Shown: piece after piece, positions 24,881 to 39,290 of the stretch
Numbering within the stretch: the first letter of the stretch is position 1
Layout: every line of letters starts with the position of its first letter
Source: Kutzneria kofuensis
Lineage (GTDB): Bacteria > Actinomycetota > Actinomycetes > Mycobacteriales > Pseudonocardiaceae
Assembly: GCF_014203355.1 (NCBI RefSeq)
Contig: NZ_JACHIR010000001.1
Coordinates: forward strand, 3,970,038 to 4,034,037
Direction: 5' to 3'
Length of the DNA stretch: 64,000 nucleotides
Notes under the pieces: generated by a model
Databases searched by the model: none
What the model saw: the letters and a program-made list of their open reading frames with translations, nothing else
Told to the model about the DNA's origin: nothing
Translations under genes and position numbers: made by a program

Positions 24881-25743
24881 AGCAGCCCCAGCTTCTCCAA
24901 GTCGGTCACCGGATCCGTCAGTGAGCACGACCCGTAGGACGCGAACACGCCGCGGACCGCGTGCGCGGCCGGGTCGGACAGCGCCTTGGCCTCCTCGGCC
25001 AGCTTCTCCCCGTCGGTCTCGGCCAGCGCCTCGCGCACGTCCTTGCCGGACAGCGAGCGCGCGGTGGCCACCAGCAGGTTGAGGAAGCCGTGGTGGGTGA
25101 AGCCGGTCTCCTCGGAGGTGTGCCGGACCGCGTTGTGCAGGCCGGCCGTGGCCTTGAAGGACACGCCGCCGCCGGAGACCACGGACAGGAAGTCCGCCAC
25201 CTGGTCCACGCTGGGGAACGCCTCGTGGCTCAGGCCGCCGCAGCGCAGCTTCGGCCAACTGCCGTGCTCGATGACCCGAGCGACGCCGTCCAGCCATTCC
25301 GCGCCGCCCCGGCGCGGCTCGACGACGCGGATCACGTCCTCGGGCACGAACTCCGACACCCGCTCCAGCCACACCTCGTCGACGTCGGACGGGGCCGGCA
25401 TCTCCACCATCCGCAGCGACAGCAGCTCGCTGCGCGACTCCACGATGGAGACGGCCTTCGGCACACCGCCGAGACCGGTGTCGATGACCAGCGAGATGGC
25501 CACCGGCTTGACCGGCTTCGCCTTGATCAACTCGGTGATCAGTTCCGGCAGGCGGGACGCCGGGCACAGGAAAAGGCCCAGCACACCGGCCCATTCGCCG
25601 GAGCGCCCGTCGAGGTGCCCACGGACCGCGTCGGCCATCGTCGCGTTGCCCGGCGGGAACAGCGCCGCGTCGTCGACGAGCCTCGCGAGCAGCGGCGGCG
25701 TGCCTCGTGGACCGGGCGCACGGAGTTCTACAGCGCTTGACAC
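24877..25743 (-). CDS. Unknown protein of the homogentisate operon
   Basis: 288 residues from GTG at 25743 (GTG at 25752 also possible). I do not recognise a named family. Visible features: an N-terminal LARLVDDAALFPPGNATMADAV segment, alternating beta/alpha stretches (LFLCPASRLPELI, AISLVIDTGLGGVP, VIRVVEPRRGG, KLRCGG, VSFKATAGLHNAVRH) suggestive of a TIM-barrel-like fold, and conserved-looking KATAGLHNA near residue 220. Cofactor motif not seen. It is coupled to fahA (GTGA) and divergent from hmgA, which argues for a role in the same pathway, possibly an isomerase or auxiliary enzyme; this is inference only. Confidence 0.7.
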   Translation of the reverse strand: MSSAVELRAPGPRGTPPLLARLVDDAALFPPGNATMADAVRGHLDGRSGEWAGVLGLFLCPASRLPELITELIKAKPVKPVAISLVIDTGLGGVPKAVSIVESRSELLSLRMVEMPAPSDVDEVWLERVSEFVPEDVIRVVEPRRGGAEWLDGVARVIEHGSWPKLRCGGLSHEAFPSVDQVADFLSVVSGGGVSFKATAGLHNAVRHTSEETGFTHHGFLNLLVATARSLSGKDVREALAETDGEKLAEEAKALSDPAAHAVRGVFASYGSCSLTDPVTDLEKLGLL

Positions 25744-25745
25744 GG

Positions 25746-25799
25746 GTGACACGCTAGCGGTGTCACGGCAGCTGAACAAAGATGTCCGACTATCGGACA
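25746..25799. promoter_or_regulatory. Candidate IclR operator(s) between hmgA and the divergent operon
   Basis: TGTCCGACTATCGGACA at 25783-25799 is a perfect palindrome (7-bp arms, 3-base centre) just before the hmgA ribosome site. A second weaker inverted repeat, GTGACAC...GTGTCAC, spans 25746-25766 and overlaps the start region of the divergent gene. Both lie in the shared promoter interval of hmgA and the fahA/iclR operon, the expected place for the local IclR protein. Confidence 0.6.
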
Positions 25800-25813
25800 C
25801 CTCGGAGAGCCCA

Positions 25814-26986
25814 ATGCCTTACTACCGACAGGTCGGGGAGATCCCCCGCAAGCGGCACACCCAGTTCCGCACGCCGGACGGCGGTCTGTACGCCGAGGAG
25901 CTCATGGGCGTGGAGGGTTTCTCCTCCGATTCGGCGCTGCTCTACCACCGCCACCTGCCCACCGCGATCGTCGACGCGCAGACCGTCGAAGATCGTCGCT
26001 GCGGCACGAAACCGAACCTGCCGTTGAAACCCCGCCACTTCAAGACACCCGACCTGACCTGGGAGGACGCCGACGCGGTCACCGGCAGGCGGGTGCTGTT
26101 CGGCAACTCCGACGTGGTGATCAACTTCGTCGCGGCGACGGCCCCGAGCCCGCTGTACCGCAACGCCACCGGCGACGAGCTGCTCTACGTGCAGACCGGT
26201 TCCGGCGTGGTGGAGACGATCTACGGGGCGCTGCCTGTCGGTGACGGCGACTACGTCGTCATCCCCACCTCTTGCACCTATCGGGTGGTGCCAACCGCCG
26301 GCGAGCCGATGCGCATCCTCGTGCTGGAGGCGACCGGCCACATCGGCCCGCCCAAGCGCTACCTGTCGGCCAAGGGCCAGTTCCTGGAGCACTCCCCGTA
26401 CTGCGAGCGGGACGTGCGCGGCCCGGCGGAGCCGCTGCTGGCCGACGGCGAGGACGTGGACGTGCTGGTCCGGCACCGGGCCGGGCTGACCCGGTTCACC
26501 TACGCCAACCACCCGTTCGACGTGGTCGGCTGGGACGGCTGCCTGTACCCGTGGGCGTTCAACATCCGGGACTTCGAGCCGATCACCGGCCGGCTGCACC
26601 AGCCGCCGCCCGTGCACCAGACGTTCGAGGGGCCCAACTTCGTGGTCTGCTCGTTCTGCCCGCGCAAGGTGGACTACCACCCGCTGTCCGTCCCCGTGCC
26701 GTACAACCACGCCAACGTCGACTCCGACGAGCTGATGTTCTACGTCGGCGGCAACTACGAGGCCCGCAAGGGTTCCGGCATCGGCATCGGTTCCCTGTCG
26801 CTGCACCCCTCCGGCTGCACGCACGGCCCGCAGCCGGGCGCGGTGGAGGCGTCGCTCGGCGCGGAGTTCTTCGACGAGACCGCTGTGATGGTGGACACGT
26901 TCCGGCCGCTGGAGCTCGGCGAGGCGGCCCAGGCGTGCGAGGACGACGCGTACGCCTGGACCTGGGCTCGCCGTCAGCGGGCCTGA
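25814..26986 (+). CDS. hmgA: Homogentisate 1,2-dioxygenase
   Basis: 390 residues from ATG at 25814, with GGAGAG just upstream. Family marks include YYRQVGEIPRKRHTQFR at the start, LLYHRHLPTAIV, FYVGGNYEARKGSGIGIGS near residue 310 and SLHPSGCTHGPQPGAVE near residue 335, which contains the Fe(II) ligand His residues. It opens the homogentisate ring to maleylacetoacetate. It is divergent from the fahA operon and convergent with a membrane-protein gene by 13 bp of overlap. The maleylacetoacetate isomerase and 4-hydroxyphenylpyruvate dioxygenase genes are not in the window. Confidence 0.94.
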   Translation: MPYYRQVGEIPRKRHTQFRTPDGGLYAEELMGVEGFSSDSALLYHRHLPTAIVDAQTVEDRRCGTKPNLPLKPRHFKTPDLTWEDADAVTGRRVLFGNSDVVINFVAATAPSPLYRNATGDELLYVQTGSGVVETIYGALPVGDGDYVVIPTSCTYRVVPTAGEPMRILVLEATGHIGPPKRYLSAKGQFLEHSPYCERDVRGPAEPLLADGEDVDVLVRHRAGLTRFTYANHPFDVVGWDGCLYPWAFNIRDFEPITGRLHQPPPVHQTFEGPNFVVCSFCPRKVDYHPLSVPVPYNHANVDSDELMFYVGGNYEARKGSGIGIGSLSLHPSGCTHGPQPGAVEASLGAEFFDETAVMVDTFRPLELGEAAQACEDDAYAWTWARRQRA

Positions 26987-27999
26987 AGCTCCTGGAAGCG
27001 CACGGCCGCGACGTGCGGGTGGCCGGGCAGCCCCACGGCGGCTGCCTGGCCGTGCTTCGGGTTGCCGGCCACCCACAGCGTGCCCGTGGCCGCGATGTTG
27101 GCCACCAGCCACGCCGGCCCGAACCGGGCGCTGACCGGCAACTGGCTACCGTCCGGCAGGGTCAGCGCCAGCCGCAGCCGCCCGACCAGCGCGGGATTGC
27201 CCGTCCACGACAGCAGCTGCACCGGATACGCCTGCCACGGGCCGTTGCGCAGCAGCTTGACCATGCGGTGCTGGTCACCGCGCCGGAAGAAGCTCGCGAC
27301 GAGCGCGACGACCAGCACGAAGACGAACCCGATGGTCGCCGGGAGCCAGCCGTCGATGGTCAGCAACAGGTCGAACACCACACTGGCGCCGCACAGCCCG
27401 ACGACGGCGAGGCCCAGGTACACGGCCCGAGCCGTGTTGGCCGCGGCCCAGCGTGACAGGTCCTCGTCCGTCACCGGCACGGGCTGCGGATTCGGCGGCG
27501 CCGGCACGACCTTCGCCGGCAGCGGGACGGGCAGGCTGTCGAGCATCACGGCCGCGACGCCGTCCGCGTTCGGGCCGATCAGCGACACCTCACGCTGCCG
27601 AGCCGCGAACTGCCGAACCGCCCGCTCCGTGTTCGTCACCCGCAGGTACAGCCGCCCGCCGTCGACGGACAGCAACGTCCACGCCCCCGCGCCGCCGACG
27701 ACCTGGCTTCTCACCCGCACCGGCGGCGCGCCGTCCAGCACCGACTCGGCCGCCGGGAGCCACCAGCCGACCCTTGAGCGGAACTGGACGAAGGCGGTCA
27801 CCGACACCGCGGCGAGGCCCAGCAACACCACTCCCAGCATGCTGAAGCCGCGATGCAGCACGAACATCAGCACCGCCAGCACGAGGCACACGACGACCGG
27901 CTGCACCAGCTTGCGCTTGCGCCAGTAGTTCAGGTGCAGCAGCACCGCCGGGTCGTTGAGCATCGGCGCTCCGACCTGCGGTCTCCACATGTCGTTCAC
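26974..27999 (-). CDS. Unknown four-helix membrane protein (paralog A)
   Basis: 341 residues from GTG at 27999; ATG at 27990 is an alternative. Two pairs of hydrophobic helices are visible, about residues 33-68 and 195-240 (separated by a soluble region with WTLLSVDGGRLYLRVTNTERA). The C-terminal part is a soluble beta-rich domain ending LWVAGNPKHGQAAAVGLPG. The neighbouring upstream gene has the same order and the same C-terminal pattern (LWIAGTPLPGATLGVGVP), so the two are tandem paralogs separated by 26 bp. No named family recognised; no catalytic motif seen. Both diverge from the SWIM/MoxR operon. Confidence 0.7.
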   Translation of the reverse strand: MNDMWRPQVGAPMLNDPAVLLHLNYWRKRKLVQPVVVCLVLAVLMFVLHRGFSMLGVVLLGLAAVSVTAFVQFRSRVGWWLPAAESVLDGAPPVRVRSQVVGGAGAWTLLSVDGGRLYLRVTNTERAVRQFAARQREVSLIGPNADGVAAVMLDSLPVPLPAKVVPAPPNPQPVPVTDEDLSRWAAANTARAVYLGLAVVGLCGASVVFDLLLTIDGWLPATIGFVFVLVVALVASFFRRGDQHRMVKLLRNGPWQAYPVQLLSWTGNPALVGRLRLALTLPDGSQLPVSARFGPAWLVANIAATGTLWVAGNPKHGQAAAVGLPGHPHVAAVRFQELQAR

Positions 28000-29187: not shown

Positions 29188-30426
29188 ATGGACGTGGAAG
29201 CAGTGCTGGCGCAGGCGCCGGACCGCCAGGTGGCGACCGGGGCCAGCAAGCTGGCGGCGCCGGCGAAATGGCCGGAACTGGGCCGCGACGACGCCGCGCT
29301 GTGGGGGCTGTGCCAGGGCAGCGGCAAGAGCCCGTACCAGGTCTGCGTCGACCTGTCGGACCGGGCGACGAAGTGCTCGTGCCCGTCCCGCAAGTTTCCG
29401 TGCAAGCACGCGGTGGCACTGCAACTGTTGCACGCCAACGGTTCCACCCAGGAAGGCAGCCAGCCGGAGTGGGTGGGCAACTGGCTGCGCGCCCGGCACA
29501 ACCGGGCCACCACGGAGCGGAAGCCGGCGCAGCCGGGCAAGCGTCGCGAGGAGTCGGTGCGGGCCGGCATCGCCGGGCTCACGGACTGGCTGACCGACCT
29601 GTCGGCCGGTGGTCTGCACACGTTGCCGTCGCGGGAACCGTTGTGGTGGCAGGGAATCATGGCCCGGATGGTGGACGCGCAGGCGCCGGGCATCGCCTCG
29701 GCGATCGGCGAGCTGCGGTCCGTGGTGGCGGCGAACCGGCCCCGCTGGTACGACGAGGCGACCGACCACATCGGACGGCTCTACCTGCTCACCAAGACCG
29801 ATTTCTCCGACGCGGCAAGGGTTCGGCTCGGGTTCACCACCACCGAGCAGGAGGTCCGGGCCGGTGAGAGCTGGTCGGACGACTGGGTCGTCCTACTCCG
29901 CATGGACAGCGACGACGGCAAGGTCCGCACGGTGCGGCAGTGGGCTTGGGGGCGGTCCCGCAAGCAGTGGGTGTACACGGCGCGGCACGCGGCCGGCGGC
30001 GCGATTCCCGTGCCGGCAATGACTCCTGGGGCGGAATTGACGGCGGTGATGCATCCCTACCCGGGCGGTTTGCCCCGGCGGGTGGCGGTCGGCGAGGTGA
30101 CGCGGTCCGGCCCGGCGGGCCCGATCCCGTTGCCGGACACGTGGGAGCAGGCGCTGGCGGCGGCCGAGCCGCTGCTCGTCAGCGACCCGTGGCTGCGGCT
30201 GGTTCCGTTGTGCTGCAAGGCGACGAAGCCGGCGCGTGACGACAAGTCGCTCTACCTCATCGACGCCACGGAACGCGCGCTGCCGGTTCGAGCGGGCGCG
30301 TCGCTGGCGCAGGCGCTGGCCCGCACGGGTGGCGAGCCGTTCGACGCGATGGGGTTGTGGGACGGAAACACGGTGCAGCTGTGCGCGATCGCCGAGCCGG
30401 GGGCGTTCCCGGAGGTGGTGTCGTGA
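29188..30426 (+). CDS. SWIM zinc finger protein
   Basis: 412 residues from ATG at 29188. The SWIM motif KCSCPSRKFPCKHAVAL near residue 65 (CxCxnCxH) is intact and should bind one Zn2+. The rest is a long helical and beta region without a named domain, with repeated hydrophobic W/L-rich stretches. SWIM domains mediate nucleic-acid or protein contacts. It opens a five-gene operon: its stop overlaps the DUF5691 gene start as GTGA. From memory, E. coli yehQ in the yehLMPQ cluster is the equivalent partner of the MoxR-type YehL. The 148-bp upstream interval holds no clear operator, only GC-rich inverted bases at 29130-29150. Confidence 0.85.
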   Translation: MDVEAVLAQAPDRQVATGASKLAAPAKWPELGRDDAALWGLCQGSGKSPYQVCVDLSDRATKCSCPSRKFPCKHAVALQLLHANGSTQEGSQPEWVGNWLRARHNRATTERKPAQPGKRREESVRAGIAGLTDWLTDLSAGGLHTLPSREPLWWQGIMARMVDAQAPGIASAIGELRSVVAANRPRWYDEATDHIGRLYLLTKTDFSDAARVRLGFTTTEQEVRAGESWSDDWVVLLRMDSDDGKVRTVRQWAWGRSRKQWVYTARHAAGGAIPVPAMTPGAELTAVMHPYPGGLPRRVAVGEVTRSGPAGPIPLPDTWEQALAAAEPLLVSDPWLRLVPLCCKATKPARDDKSLYLIDATERALPVRAGASLAQALARTGGEPFDAMGLWDGNTVQLCAIAEPGAFPEVVS

Positions 30427-31796
30427 GCATGGAGCAGCGGTGGCAGGACACGGTGCAGCAACTGCTGGTCGGCACACGGCGGGGCAACGTCGACCGGGAC
30501 ACGCTGCTGACCGACTGTGCGGCGCTCGGGCTGGCCCGGTTCGGGGCGCGGCTACCGATGACGCCGGACGACCTGGCGCCGATTCCCCTTGCCCCGCCGG
30601 AGGATGTGCAGCTCGCGGGCGAGTCCGCGCGCAACGTGCTGGCGCAGGTGCTGGGCTGGGACGACGAGGCCCTGCTGACGGAGTGGTGCGCGGCGGCCAG
30701 TCGGGCGCAAGTCGTTGCGGCGCATGCCCAGTTGCCGCAGCTACTGGCCCTCGGCGGCGCACGTCCGACGCTCCGGCCGGCGATCCGGCTGGTGCTCGGC
30801 GCTCGCGGCCAGTGGCTGGCGCAGCTGAGCAAGGACTGGGCGTGGGCGGTCGGCATCAACGAGCAGGAGCCGTACGACCCGGACGCGCCGGCGGGCAAGC
30901 GGCTGACCGCGCTGCGGCAGTGGCGGCGCGCCGATCCGGCGGCGGTACGGGCTTTGGTCGCCGAGCGGTTCCCGGAGGAGCGCCGGGCGACCGACCGGCA
31001 GCTGCTGCTCAACGCGCTTGAGGTCGGGCTGTCCATCGAGGACGAGCCGATCCTGGAGGCGGCGCTGGACGACCGCGCCGCCGGCGTGCACGACCTCGCG
31101 CTGCGGCTGCTGCGGCGGCTGCCCGGCACGGCGCTGGCGCAGCGGGCGGAACGCCGGCTCTGGGACGGACTGCGCGACGCCGACGTCATCCCGGACGGCC
31201 GGTTCGAGCTGGAGCCGGACGCCGCCGAGCAGCGGGACCTCATGCACGACGGCAACGCCGAGACCGGCATCGCCGGCCGGCTGCGGGCGGCCGCCGCGTC
31301 GGTGCCGCCCGAGTTCTGGGAGCTGGAGCAGGTGGTGGCCAGTCCGTGGGCGAAGCCGTTGCTGCAGGGCATCGCCGACGCGCTGCCGCTGGCCGCCGAC
31401 CCGGTGCCGTGGGCGTTGGCGGCGTCCGAGGTGCTGACCGGCATGGCGTTGCTGGACGCGATCGACTCGCTGCCGGCGCGGACGGCCGCCGAGGTGCTGG
31501 TCGCCGTCTCCCACGACTGGAAGTACGACCTGCTCGACCACGGCTGCTCGCAGCTGCCGGGCCCGTGGTCGGCGGCGACCACCGAGGCGCTGCTCAACCG
31601 CTTCATCGTCGCGGTCACGCCGGGTTGGCGCACCGGGCGGCCGCCGCCCGTGCTGCTGACCAGGGGCGATGTCGGAGTGCTCACGGAGCAGTGGGCACGG
31701 ATCGCCGAGCGCTGGCCGGAACACACCAACGAACAAGCAGTGCTGCATTTGCGCGTCCAACTGCGGGACGCGTTCGATCGAAGGGGCGATCAGTGA
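30423..31796 (+). CDS. DUF5691 family helical-repeat protein
   Basis: 457 residues from GTG at 30423, coupled to the SWIM gene (GTGA). The sequence is predominantly alpha-helical, with repeated ARLP, LL, and WR-type stretches and PQLLALGGARPTLRPAIRLVLG near residue 105, which resembles HEAT-like or ARM-like helical repeats. No enzymatic motif is seen. Proteins of this DUF occur beside MoxR/VWA/SWIM genes. It may act as a scaffold between the ATPase and its substrates; this is inference. Its stop overlaps the MoxR gene start as GTGA. Confidence 0.75.
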   Translation: MSMEQRWQDTVQQLLVGTRRGNVDRDTLLTDCAALGLARFGARLPMTPDDLAPIPLAPPEDVQLAGESARNVLAQVLGWDDEALLTEWCAAASRAQVVAAHAQLPQLLALGGARPTLRPAIRLVLGARGQWLAQLSKDWAWAVGINEQEPYDPDAPAGKRLTALRQWRRADPAAVRALVAERFPEERRATDRQLLLNALEVGLSIEDEPILEAALDDRAAGVHDLALRLLRRLPGTALAQRAERRLWDGLRDADVIPDGRFELEPDAAEQRDLMHDGNAETGIAGRLRAAAASVPPEFWELEQVVASPWAKPLLQGIADALPLAADPVPWALAASEVLTGMALLDAIDSLPARTAAEVLVAVSHDWKYDLLDHGCSQLPGPWSAATTEALLNRFIVAVTPGWRTGRPPPVLLTRGDVGVLTEQWARIAERWPEHTNEQAVLHLRVQLRDAFDRRGDQ

Positions 31797-32890
31797 CCGA
31801 AACAGTGCTGCGGCCGTCAGCCGAGCAGCAGTACGCCAACGAGTTGACCGCCCTCGCGGCGGTCGACGACCGGCCGAAGCCGCCGATGTGGCGGCTGTCC
31901 CCGCAGGCGGTCGTCCGCTACGTGCTCGGCGGCGAGCTGCCCGACGGCACCGCGATCACCCCGAAGTACGTCGGCGACCGGCGGATCGTCGAGGTTGCCG
32001 TGGCGACGCTGGCCACCGACCGGGCGCTGCTGCTGGTCGGCGTGCCGGGCACCGCGAAGTCGTGGCTGTCCGAGCACCTGGCCGCGGCGATCAGCGGCGA
32101 CTCCACGCTTGTCGTGCAGGGCACGGCCGGCACCAGCGAGGAGTCCGTCCGCTACGGCTGGAACTACGCGCGGCTGATCGCCGAGGGGCCGAGCGAGGCG
32201 GCGCTGGTGCCGAGCCCGGTGCTGCGGGCGATGCGGACCGGGGCGATCGCCCGGGTCGAGGAGCTCACCCGGATGCCGTCCGAGGTGCAGGACTCGCTGA
32301 TCACGGTGCTGTCCGAGAAGGCGCTGCCGGTGCCGGAGCTGAACTTCCAGGTGCAGGCCGTGCCCGGGTTCTCGGTGATCGCCACCGCGAACGACCGGGA
32401 CCGCGGCGTGAACCAGATGTCCTCGGCCTTGGCCCGCCGGTTCAACACCGTGGTGCTGCCGCCGCCGGCCACCGAGGACGCCGAGGTGGAGATCGTCTCC
32501 AGCCGGGCCGCCCAGCTCGGGCGGGCGCTGCAGCTGCCGGCTGAGCCGCCGGCGCTGGAGGAGGTGCGCCGGGTGGTGCGGGTGTTCCGCGAGCTGCGCA
32601 GCGGATCCACTGTGGACGGTCGTACCCAGCTGAAGAAGCCCAGCGGCAGCCTGTCCACGGCCGAGGCGATCTCGGTGATCACCAGCGGCATGGCGCTGGC
32701 CGCGCACTTCGGCGACGGCCGGCTCGGCGCCGACGAACTCGCCTCCGGGCTACTCGGCGCCGTGGTGAAGGACCGGGTGTCGGACACCGCCGCCTGGCAG
32801 GAGTACCTGGAGGCCGTGGTGAAGGAGCGGCCGGACTGGCGCGACCTGTACCGCGCCTGCCAGGACCACGACCTCGCCGGTTACGCCTGA
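31793..32890 (+). CDS. MoxR-type AAA+ ATPase (YehL-like)
   Basis: 365 residues from GTG at 31793. Walker A is LLVGVPGTAKSWLSEHLA near residue 80; sensor 1 is FSVIATANDRD near residue 195; the arginine finger region is SSALARRFNTVVL. The Walker B position reads IARVEELTR, with Glu in place of the usual Asp before the catalytic Glu. MoxR ATPases are chaperones that remodel or load metal-dependent or VWA partner proteins. The VWA gene of the same operon is the obvious partner. Related YehL subfamily assignment is by memory of neighbourhood and is not proven. Confidence 0.88.
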   Translation: MTETVLRPSAEQQYANELTALAAVDDRPKPPMWRLSPQAVVRYVLGGELPDGTAITPKYVGDRRIVEVAVATLATDRALLLVGVPGTAKSWLSEHLAAAISGDSTLVVQGTAGTSEESVRYGWNYARLIAEGPSEAALVPSPVLRAMRTGAIARVEELTRMPSEVQDSLITVLSEKALPVPELNFQVQAVPGFSVIATANDRDRGVNQMSSALARRFNTVVLPPPATEDAEVEIVSSRAAQLGRALQLPAEPPALEEVRRVVRVFRELRSGSTVDGRTQLKKPSGSLSTAEAISVITSGMALAAHFGDGRLGADELASGLLGAVVKDRVSDTAAWQEYLEAVVKERPDWRDLYRACQDHDLAGYA

Positions 32891-35073
32891 TGCCCAAGCT
32901 GCCCGACCGCGTCACGCTGCTCGGCATCCGCCATCACGGGCCGGGATCGGCGCGGATGGTGGCTGCCGCGCTGGCGGCCGTCCAGCCGGAGCTGGTGCTC
33001 GTGGAGGGGCCGCCGGAGGCCGACGGCCTGGTCGCACACGTCGGCGGGCTGACCCCGCCGGTCGCCTTGTTGCTGCACGACGAGTCCGATCCGGCGACGG
33101 CCGCGTTCTGGCCGTTCGCCGGCTTCTCGCCGGAGTGGCAGGCGCTGCGCTGGGCCGACGAGAACCAGGTGCCGCTTCGGTTCTTCGACCTGGCCGCGGC
33201 GGCCACGCTGGGCGAGGACGACGAGCCGGACCGGGTCGCCATCGACCCGTTGGGGCTGCTCGCCGAGGCGGCCGGCTTCGACGACCCGGAGCGCTGGTGG
33301 GAGGACGTCGTCGAGCACCACGCGGCGGCCGACCCGATCGGGCTGGCGCAGGCCGTCGCCGAGGCGATGACCGCGCTGCGCGACGAGTTCGCCGACCACG
33401 TCGGCCAGCGCACGCTGCGGCGCGAGGCGGCGATGCGGCAGGCGCTGCGCAAGGGCCTCAAGGACGTGCAAGGCCCGATCGTCGTCGTGTGCGGCGCGTG
33501 GCATGTGCCGGCCCTGCTGGAACTGCCTACGGCTACGGCGGATTCGGCGCTGCTCAAGGGCCTGCCGAAGAAGAAGATCAGCGGCACCTGGGTGCCGTGG
33601 AGCCACGGCCGGCTGGCCAACGCCGCCGGTTACGGCGCCGGCATCGCTTCCCCCGGCTGGTACGCGCACCTGTGGGAGACGGCCGCGGCCGGCGACGCCG
33701 TGCCGCGCTGGTTCGCCCGCGCCTGCCAGGTTCTGCGTGAGGAGGACCTGCCCGCGTCGACGGCGAGTGCTGTGGAGGCCGTGCGGCTGGCCGACGCGCT
33801 CGCCGCCATGCGCGGACGGCCGTCGCCGGGGCTGGCGGAGGTCAGCGAGGCGACGCTGGCCGTGCTGTGCGGCGGGGACGACACGCCGCTGCGGCTGGTG
33901 CACGAGAAGCTGGTGGTCGGCGAGGAGCTGGGCATGGTCGGCGAGGGCGTGCCGCGCTCGCCGCTTGCCGCCGACCTCGAACGCCTGCAACGGCGGCTGC
34001 GCATGCCGGCCGCCGCGATCGAGAAGCAGATGCGGCTCGATCTCCGTAAGGACATGGACCGCGAGCGGTCGAAGCTGCTGCGCCGGCTGCGGGTGCTGGA
34101 CGTGCAGTGGGGCGAGCCGGACAGCACGTCGAGCACCGGCACCTTCGCCGAGGCGTGGCGGGTGCGGTGGGATCCGAGCCTGGCGGTCGCCGTCGCGGCC
34201 GCCGCCAGGCACGGCACCACCGTCGAGGCCGCCGCCGAGCAGGTGCTGCGGCAGCGGGCCGAGGAGGCGGACCGGGTCGCCAAGGCCGCCGAGGTGCTGT
34301 GGCATTCCGTCGGCTGTGAGTCGCCGGTCGCCGTGGCCGCCGCTCGGCGAGCGCTGGACCGCTGCGCCGCCGCGGCGACCGATGCCGCCGAGCTGTTGGC
34401 GGCGTTGCCGTCGCTGGCCAGCACCGTTCGGTACGGCTCGGTCCGTGGCACCGATCCCGAGCTGCTGCGCTCCGCGCTGCATGGCCTGCTCGCCCGCGGC
34501 GCGGTCGGGCTGCCGTTGGCCTGCCGCAACGTGGACGACGACACCGCCGACCAGTTGGTCGCCGCGCTCGACGCCGCCCAGGACGCCGCCGGCCTGGCCG
34601 CCGATGACGATCATCGGGCGGTGTGGCGGGACGCGCTGCTCCGGCTGGTCGCCCTGCCCGACGCGCACGGTCTACCCGCTGGCCGGGCGACCCGGCTGCT
34701 GTGGGAATCCGGCGATTTGGACACCGATTCCGTGGCGGCGCGGCTGCACCGGGCGGTGTCCGCCACCGCCGGAGCGACGGCGTTCGTCGCCGGCTTCCTG
34801 CGCGGCTCGGCCGCGTTGCTGGCCGCGGACGACCGGCTGTTCGCGCTCATCGACACCTGGCTGACCGGCCTCTCCGGGGAGGCCTTCGCGGACGCGCTGC
34901 CGCTGCTGCGCCGGGCCGTCGGCGAGTTCAGCACGGCCGAGCGCCGCACCCTCGGCGACCGGGTGATGGCCGGCGACAGCCGGGCCGTCACCGTGCCCAC
35001 CGGCGACTGGGACACCGAGCGGGCCGAGCGCCTGGCCGCCCACGTCCGCGACCTGATCGGAGCGACCGCATGA
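32890..35073 (+). CDS. DUF5682 family protein, N-terminus TraB/EreA-like
   Basis: 727 residues, start ATG at 32890 overlapping the MoxR stop (TGATG). The N-terminal quarter has LLGIRHHGPGSARMVAAAL followed by PELVLVEGPPEADGL, then QRTLRREAAMRQALR and VVVCGAWHVPALLEL near residue 200: the G-x-x-H, S, E and GxxH order seen in TraB/EreA/TIKI metallohydrolase-like proteins. The later 500 residues are helical with many short A/L/R-rich repeats. Function of DUF5682 is unknown; the TraB resemblance is my inference. It is coupled to the VWA gene (ATGA). From memory, E. coli YehM has a similar size and neighbourhood. Confidence 0.78.
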   Translation: MPKLPDRVTLLGIRHHGPGSARMVAAALAAVQPELVLVEGPPEADGLVAHVGGLTPPVALLLHDESDPATAAFWPFAGFSPEWQALRWADENQVPLRFFDLAAAATLGEDDEPDRVAIDPLGLLAEAAGFDDPERWWEDVVEHHAAADPIGLAQAVAEAMTALRDEFADHVGQRTLRREAAMRQALRKGLKDVQGPIVVVCGAWHVPALLELPTATADSALLKGLPKKKISGTWVPWSHGRLANAAGYGAGIASPGWYAHLWETAAAGDAVPRWFARACQVLREEDLPASTASAVEAVRLADALAAMRGRPSPGLAEVSEATLAVLCGGDDTPLRLVHEKLVVGEELGMVGEGVPRSPLAADLERLQRRLRMPAAAIEKQMRLDLRKDMDRERSKLLRRLRVLDVQWGEPDSTSSTGTFAEAWRVRWDPSLAVAVAAAARHGTTVEAAAEQVLRQRAEEADRVAKAAEVLWHSVGCESPVAVAAARRALDRCAAAATDAAELLAALPSLASTVRYGSVRGTDPELLRSALHGLLARGAVGLPLACRNVDDDTADQLVAALDAAQDAAGLAADDDHRAVWRDALLRLVALPDAHGLPAGRATRLLWESGDLDTDSVAARLHRAVSATAGATAFVAGFLRGSAALLAADDRLFALIDTWLTGLSGEAFADALPLLRRAVGEFSTAERRTLGDRVMAGDSRAVTVPTGDWDTERAERLAAHVRDLIGATA

Positions 35074-36227
35074 CCGACGAACGGCAACGGCGGTGGCGGC
35101 TGCTGCTCGGCGGCGCGGCCGGCGAGATGGGCGGTCTCGGCGAGGACGACCAGCGCCGGGACGGGGCTCTGACCTCGCTCTACGGTGGCGGCGGCGAGGG
35201 CCAGGACGGCAAGCGCAGCGCCGGCCTCGGCAGCAGTTCGCCGGTGCTGCACCGCTGGCTCGGCGACGTCCGCACCTACTTCCCCACCTCCGTGGTGCAG
35301 GTGATGCAGCGGGACGCCGTCGAGCGGCTGGGCCTGAACAAGCTGCTGCTGGAGCCGGAGCTGCTGTCCACGGTGGAGCCGGACGTGCGGCTGGTCGGCA
35401 CGCTCGTCTCGTTGTCGAAGGCGATACCGGCTCGTACGAGGGAGACCGCGCGGGCGGTGGTGCGCAAGGTCGTCGAGGACGTCGAGCGCAAGCTGGCCGA
35501 CCGACTGCTGGCCGCCGTGCACGGCGCGATCGACCGGTCCAAGCGCACCCACCGGCCCCGACTGTCCGATGTGGACTGGGCGACGACGATCCGGGCCAAC
35601 CTGAAGAACTACCAGCCGGCGCAGAACACCGTGGTCGTCAGCGACCTGATCGGCCGGCAGCGGCGGTCCCGCACCGCGTCGCTGCGGGACGTGGTGCTGC
35701 TGGTCGACCAGTCCGGCTCGATGGCCGAGTCGGTGGTCTACTCGGCGGTGTTCGGCGCGGTGCTGGCCTCGATCCGGGCCGTGGACACGAAGCTGGTCGT
35801 GTTCGACACCGAGGTCGTGGACCTGACCGAGACCCTGGACGACCCGGTGGACGTGCTGTTCTCCACCCAGCTGGGCGGCGGCACGGACATCAACCGGGCG
35901 GTCGCGTACGGGCAGTCGCTGATCAAGCGGCCGGCCGACTCGGTGATGGTGCTGATCAGCGACCTGTTCGAGGGCGGCGTGGCCGGCGAGCTGCTGCGCC
36001 GGGTGCGGGAACTGGTGGCCAGCGGGGTGACCGTGGTGGTGTTGCTGGCGCTGTCGGACAGCGGCGCGCCGGCGTACGACCACGAGCTGGCGGCCCGGCT
36101 GTCCGAGCTGGGGGCGCCCGCGTTCGCGTGCACACCGGACCGGTTCCCCGATCTATTGGCCGCTGCCCTGCGCCGGGATGACGTGGCAACCTGGGCTGAG
36201 GAGGCGGGCATGGCCGTCGGCAGATGA
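35070..36227 (+). CDS. VWA-domain protein of the MoxR system
   Basis: 385 residues, ATG at 35070 coupled to the previous stop (ATGA). The N-terminal half is helical and charged. The C-terminal half is a von Willebrand A domain with a complete MIDAS: VVLLVDQSGSMAESV near residue 215 (DxSxS), GGGTDINRA near residue 270 (Thr), and MVLISDLFEG near residue 300 (Asp). It should bind a divalent metal and a partner protein, as in MoxR/VWA chaperone pairs. It is the last gene of the five-gene operon; no transmembrane helix is present. Confidence 0.9.
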   Translation: MTDERQRRWRLLLGGAAGEMGGLGEDDQRRDGALTSLYGGGGEGQDGKRSAGLGSSSPVLHRWLGDVRTYFPTSVVQVMQRDAVERLGLNKLLLEPELLSTVEPDVRLVGTLVSLSKAIPARTRETARAVVRKVVEDVERKLADRLLAAVHGAIDRSKRTHRPRLSDVDWATTIRANLKNYQPAQNTVVVSDLIGRQRRSRTASLRDVVLLVDQSGSMAESVVYSAVFGAVLASIRAVDTKLVVFDTEVVDLTETLDDPVDVLFSTQLGGGTDINRAVAYGQSLIKRPADSVMVLISDLFEGGVAGELLRRVRELVASGVTVVVLLALSDSGAPAYDHELAARLSELGAPAFACTPDRFPDLLAAALRRDDVATWAEEAGMAVGR

Positions 36228-36284: not shown

Positions 36285-36303
36285 TTAGGTTGACCTAACT
36301 TGG
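36285..36303 (+). promoter_or_regulatory. DtxR/IdeR-type iron box upstream of the DUF2470 gene
   Basis: TTAGGTTGACCTAACTTGG matches 14 of 19 positions of the actinobacterial DtxR/IdeR/DmdR consensus TTAGGTTAGCCTAACCTAA; the core GTTAGGT-TG-ACCTAAC is a perfect 16-bp inverted repeat. It ends at the ribosome site and 10 bases before the ATG at 36313, so binding would block expression when Fe(II) is plentiful. The regulator gene itself is not in the window. Confidence 0.75.
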
Positions 36304-36312
36304 AGGTGAGCG

Positions 36313-37101
36313 ATGAGCCAGGCCACGTACCGGCCGCCGGCGCCCACCGCGGCGGAGCGGGCAAGGACGATCGCCGCGCGTGGTGGCCGGGCGGCCGTGC
36401 TGCCCGGCGCCGACGAGGCCTCGGCCTCGGCGTCCCGCACGGTGCCGATGCTGCACCACGTGCACCCCGACGGGGTCGCCACGCTCCTGTTCCGCGACAA
36501 CGACCCACTGGTCGCGCTGGCTGCGCAGGCCCCGCGCGGCGAGCTGACCGGCATGCTCGAACTCGCCGACACCGCGCCGGTGCCGTTGCGGGAGCCGGTC
36601 CGCGGGCTGCTCTGGATCACCGGCTGGCTGCGTGCGCTGGACGGCGAGCAGGCCAGGGCGGCGGTGCTGGAGGTGGCCGAGAGCAAGCCGGACCCGCGGC
36701 TGCTCGACGCCGGCCACGGCGCCACCGTGCTGCGGCTGACGCCGGCCTCGATGGTCGTCGCCGACGCCGAGGGCACCAGCTCGGTCCGGCCGAGCGAGTT
36801 CGGCGACGCCGAGCCGGACCCGTTCCACCAGCAAGAGGACCAGTGGCTGCGGCACCTGGAGCTGTCCCACCGGGACGTGGTCGAGCTGCTCAGCCGGCAC
36901 CTGCCGGAGCACCTGCGCGGCGGCCACGTCCGGCCGCTCGGGCTGGACCGGTTGGGGCTGCGCCTGCGGGTGGAGGCCGTCGAGGGTGATCACGACGTGC
37001 GGATCGCGTTCGCGCATCCGGTGCACACGGCCAAGGAGTTGTCCGGCGAGCTGCGCCGGCTCATGGGCTGCCCGTTCTTGACGCAGGCCCAGCGGGGGTA
37101 A
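36313..37101 (+). CDS. DUF2470 (HugZ-like) protein
   Basis: 262 residues from ATG at 36313 with GGAGGTGA just upstream. The C-terminal part (from about residue 175) is the DUF2470 domain: LSRHLPEHLRGGHVRPLGL, RLRVEAVEGDHDVRIAFAHP and a terminal RRLMGCPF. The N-terminal part has the split-barrel pattern of FMN-binding-like/HugZ proteins. These proteins bind or process haem or iron-siderophore substrates. The iron box in front of it supports a role in iron supply. No cofactor ligand can be assigned here. Confidence 0.82.
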   Translation: MSQATYRPPAPTAAERARTIAARGGRAAVLPGADEASASASRTVPMLHHVHPDGVATLLFRDNDPLVALAAQAPRGELTGMLELADTAPVPLREPVRGLLWITGWLRALDGEQARAAVLEVAESKPDPRLLDAGHGATVLRLTPASMVVADAEGTSSVRPSEFGDAEPDPFHQQEDQWLRHLELSHRDVVELLSRHLPEHLRGGHVRPLGLDRLGLRLRVEAVEGDHDVRIAFAHPVHTAKELSGELRRLMGCPFLTQAQRG

Positions 37102-37119
37102 CGGGTAGCGTCCGCCGGC

Positions 37120-37923
37120 ATGGCGAGCACTTTGCGCAGCTGGCTGGCGCCGGCCCGGGTGACGGACGCGATCACCGATCCGGTGCAGCGGCGCGGCTAC
37201 ACCTGGGAGCTGCTGATCGTCTTCAGCGCGACGCTGGGGCTTTCCGGGCTGCGCAGCCTGATCTCGCTGCTGAACGCGCTGCTGCAGCCGAAGCCGCTGA
37301 ACCAGCAGAGCGTCGCGCTGAACGTGCAGCAGGCCACGGTCAGCCTGCTCGACCTGCTCGCGCAGCTGGCCGGCGTGCTGCAACTGCTGGCCTGGGGCGC
37401 GCTGGGCGCCTACCTGCTGTGGCGGGCGGGGATCGGGCCGCGGCTGGTCGGGCTGGACCGCACGCGGCCGGGCCGGGACCTGCTGGCCGGCTGCGGGCTG
37501 GCCGCCCTGATCGGCATTCCCGGGCTGGGCTTCTACTTCCTGACCAGGGCGATCGGCATCAACCTGAACGTGGTGCCGTCGGCGCTCGGGGACACGTGGT
37601 GGCGGGTGCCGGTGCTGATCCTGTCCGCGTTCGGCAACGCGTGGGCCGAGGAGTCGCTCGTCGTCGGTTACCTGATCACGCGGCTGCGCAAGTTCGGCTG
37701 GGCCGAGAACTCGTCGCTGGTCGCCGCGGCCGTGCTGCGCGGCTCGTACCACCTCTACCAGGGCTTCGGCGGCTTCCTCGGCAACGTCGTGCTCGGACTG
37801 GTGTTCGGCCGGGTCTGGCAGCGCTACAACCGGCTGTGGGCGCTGGTCGTGGCCCACACCATCCTCGACATCGTGTCCTTCGTCGGGTACGCGCTGCTGC
37901 ACAGCGTGATCCCCGGATTGTGA
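37120..37923 (+). CDS. CPBP-family intramembrane protease
   Basis: 267 residues from ATG at 37120, 18 bp after the DUF2470 gene. Six to seven hydrophobic segments are visible. The CPBP (ABI) motifs are present: NAWAEESLVVGYL near residue 183 (Glu-Glu pair), SYHLYQGFGG near residue 210 (His), and VVAHTILDIVSF near residue 250 (second His). The first motif reads EESxxxG rather than the usual EExxxR. Members are prenyl-protease-like membrane endopeptidases, often in self-immunity or cell-envelope roles. Substrate unknown. Confidence 0.82.
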   Translation: MASTLRSWLAPARVTDAITDPVQRRGYTWELLIVFSATLGLSGLRSLISLLNALLQPKPLNQQSVALNVQQATVSLLDLLAQLAGVLQLLAWGALGAYLLWRAGIGPRLVGLDRTRPGRDLLAGCGLAALIGIPGLGFYFLTRAIGINLNVVPSALGDTWWRVPVLILSAFGNAWAEESLVVGYLITRLRKFGWAENSSLVAAAVLRGSYHLYQGFGGFLGNVVLGLVFGRVWQRYNRLWALVVAHTILDIVSFVGYALLHSVIPGL

Positions 37924-38057
37924 CAACAACGTATCGATGGTCGGATGGCGCGTTTGTTTAACGGATCGCTGCTACAACGGGCGTTCCGTTTCTGAAATCG
38001 CCGTCACACCCGGTTGAGGGGCGACAAATCCACTGTCGCGTGGTTACCCTCGGGGCC

Positions 38058-39290
38058 GTGACCTCAGACATCAGTTCTGCCATGGACTTGTCGCCGGCGC
38101 CGAGGGTCGACAGCGAGGTCGGCCCGCTGCGCACCGTGCTGCTGCACCGCCCCGGCCGGGAACTGAAGCGGCTGACCCCGCGCAACAACGACCAGCTGCT
38201 GTTCGACGGCATCCCCTGGGTCGGCCGCGCCCAGGAGGAGCACGACGCGTTCGCCGAGACGCTGCGGTCGCGCGGCGTCGAGGTGCTGCTGCTGGCCGAC
38301 CTGCTGCGGACCTCGCTGGAGGACCAGCGGGCCCGGGCCGCCGGCATCTACGCCGCCGTCGACGAGCGGCAGCTCGGCATCGACCTGGCCGACGCGCTGC
38401 GGTCACACCTGTCGACGCTGGTCCCGTCCGAGCTGGCCACCGTGCTGATGGCCGGCATGACGTTCGAGGAGCTGCCGGCGGCCGAAGGCGCGTCGCTGGT
38501 GCGGCACATGCACCAGCCCCACGACTTCGCCATCGCCCCGCTGCCCAACCTGCTGTTCACCCGCGACTCCTCGGCATGGGTCGCGGACCGGGTCGCCGTG
38601 TCGTCGCTCGTGATGCCGGCCCGCCGCCGCGAGTCGTCGATCACCGACCTCATCTACGCGTACCACCCGCGCTTCGCCAAGACCTCCCGTGCGTACGGCG
38701 CGCACTCGGCGCCCTTGGAGGGCGGTGACGTGCTGCTGCTGTCGCAGGGCGTGCTGGCCATCGGTGTCGGCGAGCGCACAACGCCCGCCGGCGCCGAGTC
38801 GTTCGCCCGCTCGGTGTTCCTGGACGGCCTCGCGCACACCGTGCTGGCCGTGCCGATCGCGCAGGAGCGCGCCACCATGCACCTGGACACCGTGTGCACC
38901 ATGGTCGACCGGGACGCCGTGGTGATGTACCCGGCGATCCGCGACTCGCTGTCCGCCTTCACGCTGCGACCCGACGGCGCCGGCGGCGTCAGCGTCGACG
39001 GCCCGTCGCCGTTCCTGACCGCGGCCGCCACCGCGATGGGCATCGACCGGCTGCGCGTCATCGACACCGGGTTGGACTCAGTGACCGCCGAGCGCGAGCA
39101 GTGGGACGACGGCAACAACACGCTCGCCGTCGCGCCGGGCGTTGTCGTCGCATATGAGCGGAATGTGGAAACCAATGCACGGCTTGAGGACGCCGGCATC
39201 GAGGTGCTCCGGATCAGCGGCTCCGAGCTGGGCTCGGGTCGCGGCGGCCCGCGCTGCATGTCCTGCCCCGTGCTGCGGGATGCGCTGTAA
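38058..39290 (+). CDS. arcA: Arginine deiminase
   Basis: 410 residues from GTG at 38058. The guanidino-modifying fold is clear: [19 protein letters not shown] at the start, [12 protein letters not shown] near residue 165, [32 protein letters not shown] with the active-site His, and GGPRCMSCP near the C-terminus carrying the catalytic Cys. It converts arginine to citrulline and ammonia. No arcB, arcC or arcD is beside it, so it is a solitary deiminase rather than a full energy-yielding ADI operon here. The 134-bp upstream gap is AT-richer than average and has no confident promoter. Confidence 0.94.

Follow-up and report, generated by a model that had tools for sequence, protein, structure and literature searches.

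What a MoxR-type ATPase does when it is encoded with a VWA protein and three poorly annotated partners is the question raised by a five-gene operon of Kutzneria kofuensis, located at 29188-36227 of the window (the whole stretch of 64,000 nucleotides analysed here, from an actinobacterial genome of 10.4 Mb). All on the forward strand, the operon encodes in order a SWIM zinc protein, a DUF5691 protein, a MoxR AAA+ ATPase, a DUF5682 protein and a VWA_CoxE protein. The answer proposed here, for which the balance of confidence is even, is that DUF5682 is a cytosolic hydrolase of TIKI type which the MoxR-VWA motor remodels or supplies with metal, with the binding, the metal, the hydrolysis and the direction of action all being putative.

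Regarding the integrity of the set, a scan of public genomes for relatives gave at least 552 matches, and the best 80 loci were retained, a sample that leans to close relatives and for which the locus profiles were built partly from members of those same loci. All five genes occur together in 71 of them. Contig ends truncate seven of the other nine (L045, L068, L091, L095, L096, L104 and L120), and two are true exceptions that count against the proposal, as L093 has DUF5682 and VWA alone and L101 only DUF5682. With profiles made from Pseudonocardiales-type sequences only, 58 of 99 loci (53 + 4 + 1) still had the five genes in order and on the same strand. DUF5682 is present in 14 of 41 related genomes and in 17 of 198 evenly sampled actinobacterial genomes, the window's own among them, while in these 198 DUF5691 was found above cut-off in 16 and below it in 3 more. 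Each of the 16 has a DUF5682 no more than 3.4 kb away; the sole DUF5682 genome without DUF5691 (G163) carries a distant copy (1e-103). Moreover, the distance matrices of the five proteins correlate at 0.82-0.90 over the 71 loci. The five genes are one conserved, co-inherited unit; the rarity of joint occurrence that the first-pass annotation had named as evidence against a system was looked for, and the set came through.

The loci are spread over actinobacteria, Bacteroidota, Proteobacteria, Planctomycetes, Chloroflexi and cyanobacterial/Melainabacteria metagenome-assembled genomes, the nearest named relatives being Kutzneria, with DUF5682 identities of 94% and 80%. Conservation is uneven along the operon, with median identities of 0.70 for MoxR, 0.61 for VWA, 0.47 for DUF5682, 0.35 for SWIM and 0.27 for DUF5691, and the same ranking is kept between Bacteroidota and actinobacteria (0.66, 0.56, 0.42, 0.31 and 0.22, respectively). 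The high values of MoxR and VWA against the low ones of SWIM and DUF5691 would fit a conserved engine with diverging adaptors.

The order of the genes, which had been described as fixed, holds only in part. Among the 71 complete loci, 49 have the window order and 4 have it with a YehI-like gene after; in 12 of the Streptomyces type SWIM and DUF5691 are divergent, and in 6 from Lentzea VWA is inverted. L031 also departs from it, as VWA was not seen in its 18-kb stretch. A loss of VWA in Lentzea was considered and rejected, the gene being present but inverted; the absence of SWIM and DUF5691 in Streptomyces, suggested by a same-strand filter, was likewise rejected, both genes being present and divergent. 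The four loci with the YehI (DUF4132)-like gene belong to Bacteroidota (L058, L071, L092 and L105) and form a bridge between the window layout and that of Escherichia coli, described below.

At the level of the reading frames, the first-pass annotation proved accurate: the five frames are intact at the coordinates it gave, and all four junctions overlap as in translationally coupled genes (GTGA at 30423, GTGA at 31793, TGATG at 32888-32892 and ATGA at 35070). Third-position GC across the frames is 0.91-0.96, and Pfam agrees with the names given to the proteins; NCBIfam yielded nothing above any cut-off. In relatives, overlaps or gaps of at most 10 nucleotides at same-strand junctions are found for SWIM>DUF5691 in 43 of 59, DUF5691>MoxR in 49 of 62, MoxR>DUF5682 in 58 of 76 and DUF5682>VWA in 60 of 72, counts that are biased toward overlaps because the start codon nearest to the upstream stop was picked. 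Since overlaps and short gaps are frequent in relatives, the tight junctions of the window are more than chance. A promoter and terminator scan returned no promoter-like sites and a single terminator-like one, no more than chance would give.

The motor is the best-conserved part. MoxR (31793-32890, GTG start, 365 amino acids, Pfam AAA_5 2.2e-37) has all the core motifs of an AAA+ ATPase, namely Walker A (G83-S90), an acidic Walker B ending in E156-E157, sensor 1 (N200) and the Arg finger (R215-R216). G83, P85, G86, K89, E156, E157, N200 and R216 are kept in 78 of 78 aligned sequences and R215 in 77. The Walker B end is Glu-Glu, not Asp-Glu, in all 78, E. coli YehL included. The VWA_CoxE protein (35070-36227, 385 amino acids, Pfam 2.6e-52) carries a complete metal ion-dependent adhesion site (MIDAS), as had been proposed, with D213, S215, S217, T272 and D298 kept in 79 of 79 aligned sequences; it adjoins the MoxR gene across that of DUF5682, as expected for a VWA_CoxE/NorD-type cofactor. 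According to excerpts of PMC13036017, MoxR-VWA pairs remodel clients and insert metals, and in NorQ-NorD a finger of the VWA protein enters the AAA+ pore, where rotation opens the client. NorQ-NorD and CoxD-CoxE share with the window the MoxR AAA+ ATPase and the VWA_CoxE-family partner, and the AAA+ and MIDAS motifs are intact here. They differ in the third protein, which is nitric oxide reductase or CO dehydrogenase there and a soluble TIKI-type DUF5682 here, and in the SWIM and DUF5691 subunits, which are extra in the window set, for which metal insertion is putative.

The MoxR protein is also YehL-like, and the YehL-type gene context, with YehM- and VWA-type neighbours, surrounds it. Pairwise matches link YehL to MoxR (5e-73, in a comparison with YehL alone among the MoxR subfamilies), YehM to DUF5682 (2e-36) and YehP to VWA (5e-73). 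In E. coli, the MoxR, DUF5682 and VWA genes are adjacent in the same order as in the window, YehM keeps the GX2H/Glu/GX2H residues of DUF5682, and a SWIM-annotated gene (yehQ) completes the set. However, yehQ follows the VWA gene, a DUF4132 gene (yehI) stands upstream, and the DUF5691 profile search was negative in E. coli, whereas the DUF5682 search was positive there. Thus, the parallel drawn earlier with yehL/M/P/Q stands for YehL, YehM and YehP, but not for YehQ, which shares the SWIM annotation and is unmatched by the window SWIM protein. The description of the set as uncharacterised also needs qualification: YehL is named in print as one of seven MoxR subfamilies, and E. coli K-12 has just one MoxR type besides it (excerpts of PMC3893208), while no functional study of yehL/M/P/Q was found in the open-access literature, subscription papers being outside the search. 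Both types can coexist, as seen in three related genomes (G001, G002 and G013). Among 18 loci of related genomes (L024-L041), 9 are of the window type, 3 of the E. coli type (DUF4132-MoxR-DUF5682-VWA-YehQ), 2 have MoxR beside a DUF5682-VWA fusion, and in 4 a remote DUF5682 relative accompanies VWA and MoxR. In G002, both DUF5682 copies, one of each type, are split into two overlapping frames (L033:7833-9525 and L037:7500-9711), by sequencing error or decay.

The nature of DUF5682 (32890-35073, 727 amino acids, Pfam 3.7e-227) is central to the question. It had been counted, with DUF5691, among two large proteins without known function; it reads as a TIKI/TraB-superfamily domain followed by a helical solenoid, on the basis of the predicted structure, structure matches and profile tests, and DUF5691 has weak HEAT signatures. 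The superfamily is defined by two GX2H motifs and a conserved Glu, both seen in the TraB alignment of this analysis. The AlphaFold2 model (predicted local distance difference test score 89.1, predicted template modelling score 0.83) has an N-terminal alpha/beta domain with a parallel sheet (about residues 1-240) and a C-terminal solenoid (about residues 395-712). The N-domain bears G12xxH15-H16, E39, E82, D100, R178-E179 and G202xxH205, in the order GX2H/Glu/Arg/GX2H, as in TraB. G12xxH15, E39 and G202xxH205 are kept in 82 of 82 sequences; in four type-D paralogues H15, E39, G202 and H205 are kept, G12 not. R178, invariant in 60 of 60, aligns with TraB R223 and is the counterpart of the conserved basic residue near the active site of the superfamily (excerpts of PMC6254334). 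The TraB and Ere profiles beat their own shuffles against DUF5682, and four unrelated profiles do not. Relative to Tiki, TraB/GumN, ChaN and Ere, DUF5682 shares the ordered residues and, in its N-domain, has a fold match to ChaN, but a signal peptide or membrane segment is not evident in its sequence, HH replaces the single His of the first motif, a large solenoid is added, and the MoxR-VWA partnership is constant. The remote relatives of L038-L041, of about 1,000 amino acids, stand beside VWA and MoxR and keep HH, Glu, Asp, Arg-Glu and GxxH, with PVCHH replacing GxRHH; Pfam did not recognise the one scanned (L039), and the proteins upstream of the VWA gene in these loci match no Pfam family.

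Several results weigh against this assignment. The top structure matches of the N-domain, ChaN and 8b6h_DQ, a Tetrahymena subunit that is probably of the TraB family, align at a root-mean-square deviation of about 5 A and 11-17% identity, and the identity of 8b6h_DQ with the TraB-family subunit of PMC10060162 is unconfirmed, because searching the Protein Data Bank (PDB) with the TraB profile yielded no TraB chains. The DUF5682-TraB profile score is reached by 0 of 199 and 0 of 60 shuffles, yet the hhalign probability is only 0.8-1.2%; an earlier hhalign test on 15 TraB pieces, several of them short, gave P 0.069. Pfam TraB (PF01963), run on the window's own genome, leaves DUF5682 undetected even with the threshold at E 10, the DUF5682 profile finds no TIKI chains in the PDB at E 10, and Pfam scans gave a single TIKI family match (PF04187, 0.068) in 1 of 12 members and, for 51 members, none among the matches listed (25 of 40 families). 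The PF05139 model, searched in 31 genomes, gave two matches in the window's own genome, both outside the window. A family missing from the VIA-align match lists of the DUF5682 and SWIM models is not thereby excluded. The second Glu that precedes the first His by two residues in Ere/RRSP is I or V in DUF5682 (position 13), which counts solely against an Ere-type site, because the aligned TraB proteins are also without it. Lastly, neither metal loading nor hydrolysis follows from the assignment, because some TIKI members are metal-independent (excerpts of PMC6254334) or bind haem, as ChaN does.

DUF5682 is the natural client or effector of the motor, because its gene sits between those of MoxR and VWA and because L032 and L034 encode it fused with a VWA_CoxE domain. 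The protease or esterase activity of TIKI enzymes depends on His/Glu pairs (excerpts of PMC6254334). Together with the remodelling and metal insertion ascribed to MoxR-VWA pairs, these points favour a motor that would activate a cytosolic TIKI-type hydrolase. The five products would form one cytosolic machine, in which a YehL-kind MoxR ring may serve as ATP motor, acting with the VWA partner on DUF5682. Modelled on NorQ-NorD and CoxD-CoxE, VWA would bridge ring and client by MIDAS contacts, and ATP-driven twisting could open up the client and thereby load a metal, restore an inhibited site or supply it with substrate. The SWIM protein and the HEAT-like DUF5691 might be recognition or adaptor subunits choosing when or where, and the output would be regulated hydrolysis of a cytosolic ester or peptide substrate.

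The same evidence could be taken to describe a pure maturation chaperone, where MoxR-VWA serves a client encoded elsewhere, by metal insertion or assembly, DUF5682, DUF5691 and SWIM are adaptors, and the TIKI-type domain, like ChaN, serves for binding and is not an enzyme. MoxR-VWA pairs of known role do mature other enzymes (excerpts of PMC13036017 and PMC3893208), and ChaN, one of the two closest structures, binds haem. This alternative is doubtful, however: four DUF5682 subtypes have in common three His, three Arg and several acidic residues without variation, a pattern that suits an active site better than a docking surface, and no client is apparent near the set, because no other gene family recurs beside it across phyla within about 9 kb, the widest group covering three taxon labels and including a single locus each from Bacteroidota and Streptomyces.

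The remaining subunits bear on what would switch on the putative DUF5682 hydrolase. The SWIM protein (29188-30426, 412 amino acids, Pfam SWIM 6.2e-6) contains the SWIM domain CSCPSRKFPCKH at residues 63-74, a helical middle and a C-terminal tandem-OB-like region, and its predicted structure combines a ZSWIM8-like zinc domain with a tandem-OB-like domain. DUF5691 (30423-31796, 457 amino acids, GTG start, Pfam 5.1e-60) is a probable HEAT-type helical adaptor, a role suggested by three Streptomyces-type homologues that match HEAT models weakly (E 0.015-0.068). One could imagine a nucleic-acid-sensing hydrolase machine, where the ZSWIM8-like zinc domain and a HIN-200/RPA-like tandem-OB reader detect single-stranded, foreign or damaged nucleic acid and the HEAT adaptor licenses MoxR-VWA to activate a cytosolic TIKI-type protease or esterase, DUF5682, an idea that we rate as unlikely. 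If true, no TIKI enzyme driven by an AAA+ ATPase would precede it, and the YehL branch of MoxR, which E. coli K-12 possesses, would gain a function. A nucleic-acid stress responder, with the SWIM/tandem-OB protein sensing single-stranded or damaged nucleic acid and switching on the MoxR-VWA-DUF5682 hydrolase, appears slightly less probable still.

The SWIM region is also where a conflict role finds some sequence matches. Of the PADLOC 2.0.0 models, only PDC-S62 (3.6e-5) and DpdE (2.8e-4), both weak at 15-20 bits, matched this region and mad8 the ATPase (E 0.05), with none for DUF5691, DUF5682 or VWA. An anti-phage system of the MoxR-vWA ternary kind (Kaur et al. 2020) would likewise encode MoxR and VWA within one operon, a weak PF20030 bpMoxR match is present (25.9 bits, below the cut-off of 27), and presence is patchy, as the 17 of 198 actinobacterial genomes indicate. 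However, the ternary systems described in excerpts of PMC7159879 have a propeller or VMAP third component and a variable effector, and no such part was found among the five genes (Pfam, E 0.1); SWIM, TraB and Yeh are absent from those excerpts. The neighbours are of a housekeeping kind kept within clades: a homologue of the succinyl-CoA ligase gene (sucCD) identified in L089 stands beside 13 of 14 Streptomyces-type loci, and 13 Kutzneria/Lentzea-group loci share an HgmA-type gene, homogentisate-dioxygenase-like by Pfam in L044. Matches are rare on plasmids (36 of 72,556 records, some chromosome-sized) and phages (1 of 50,697, a metagenomic contig of 14 kb that lacks annotation), and the MoxR proteins of Bacteroidota and actinobacteria share 66% identity. 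The locus looks chromosomal, clade-stable and patchy in presence, not like a mobile defence island, and the conflict-type machine suggested by the first-pass annotation is therefore not supported; we regard such a system as highly unlikely.

The gene set itself is of a known kind; what the searches indicate to be new is the TIKI reading, together with the census of the five genes and the divergent layouts. In the open-access literature searched, no paper was found for DUF5682 or DUF5691, none on MoxR and Tiki together, and among papers on MoxR and TraB none on this subject by title. The TIKI superfamily is known for the Wnt-cleaving Tiki proteases and the erythromycin esterases. Reading DUF5682/YehM as a member names H15, E39 and H205, with their equivalents, as candidate catalytic residues and makes an anonymous operon a testable enzyme system; if true, it would extend the superfamily to a cytosolic, AAA+-coupled form.

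Around the operon, an inverted repeat, TTAGGTTGACCTAA, lies at 36285-36299, downstream of the VWA gene and directly before a DUF2470 gene (36313-37101), with 1 exact match in the window and 0 expected. It differs from the classic 19-base iron box, and a DtxR/IdeR-type consensus had no match near 36285 at up to 3 mismatches. From 36313 to 39290, the DUF2470 protein, an Rce1-like CPBP membrane protease and an arginine deiminase are encoded. Upstream, the frame at 24986-27000 resembles by eye a homogentisate-1,2-dioxygenase-type protein, like the one in the Kutzneria relative L044, on which alone the Pfam check was made.

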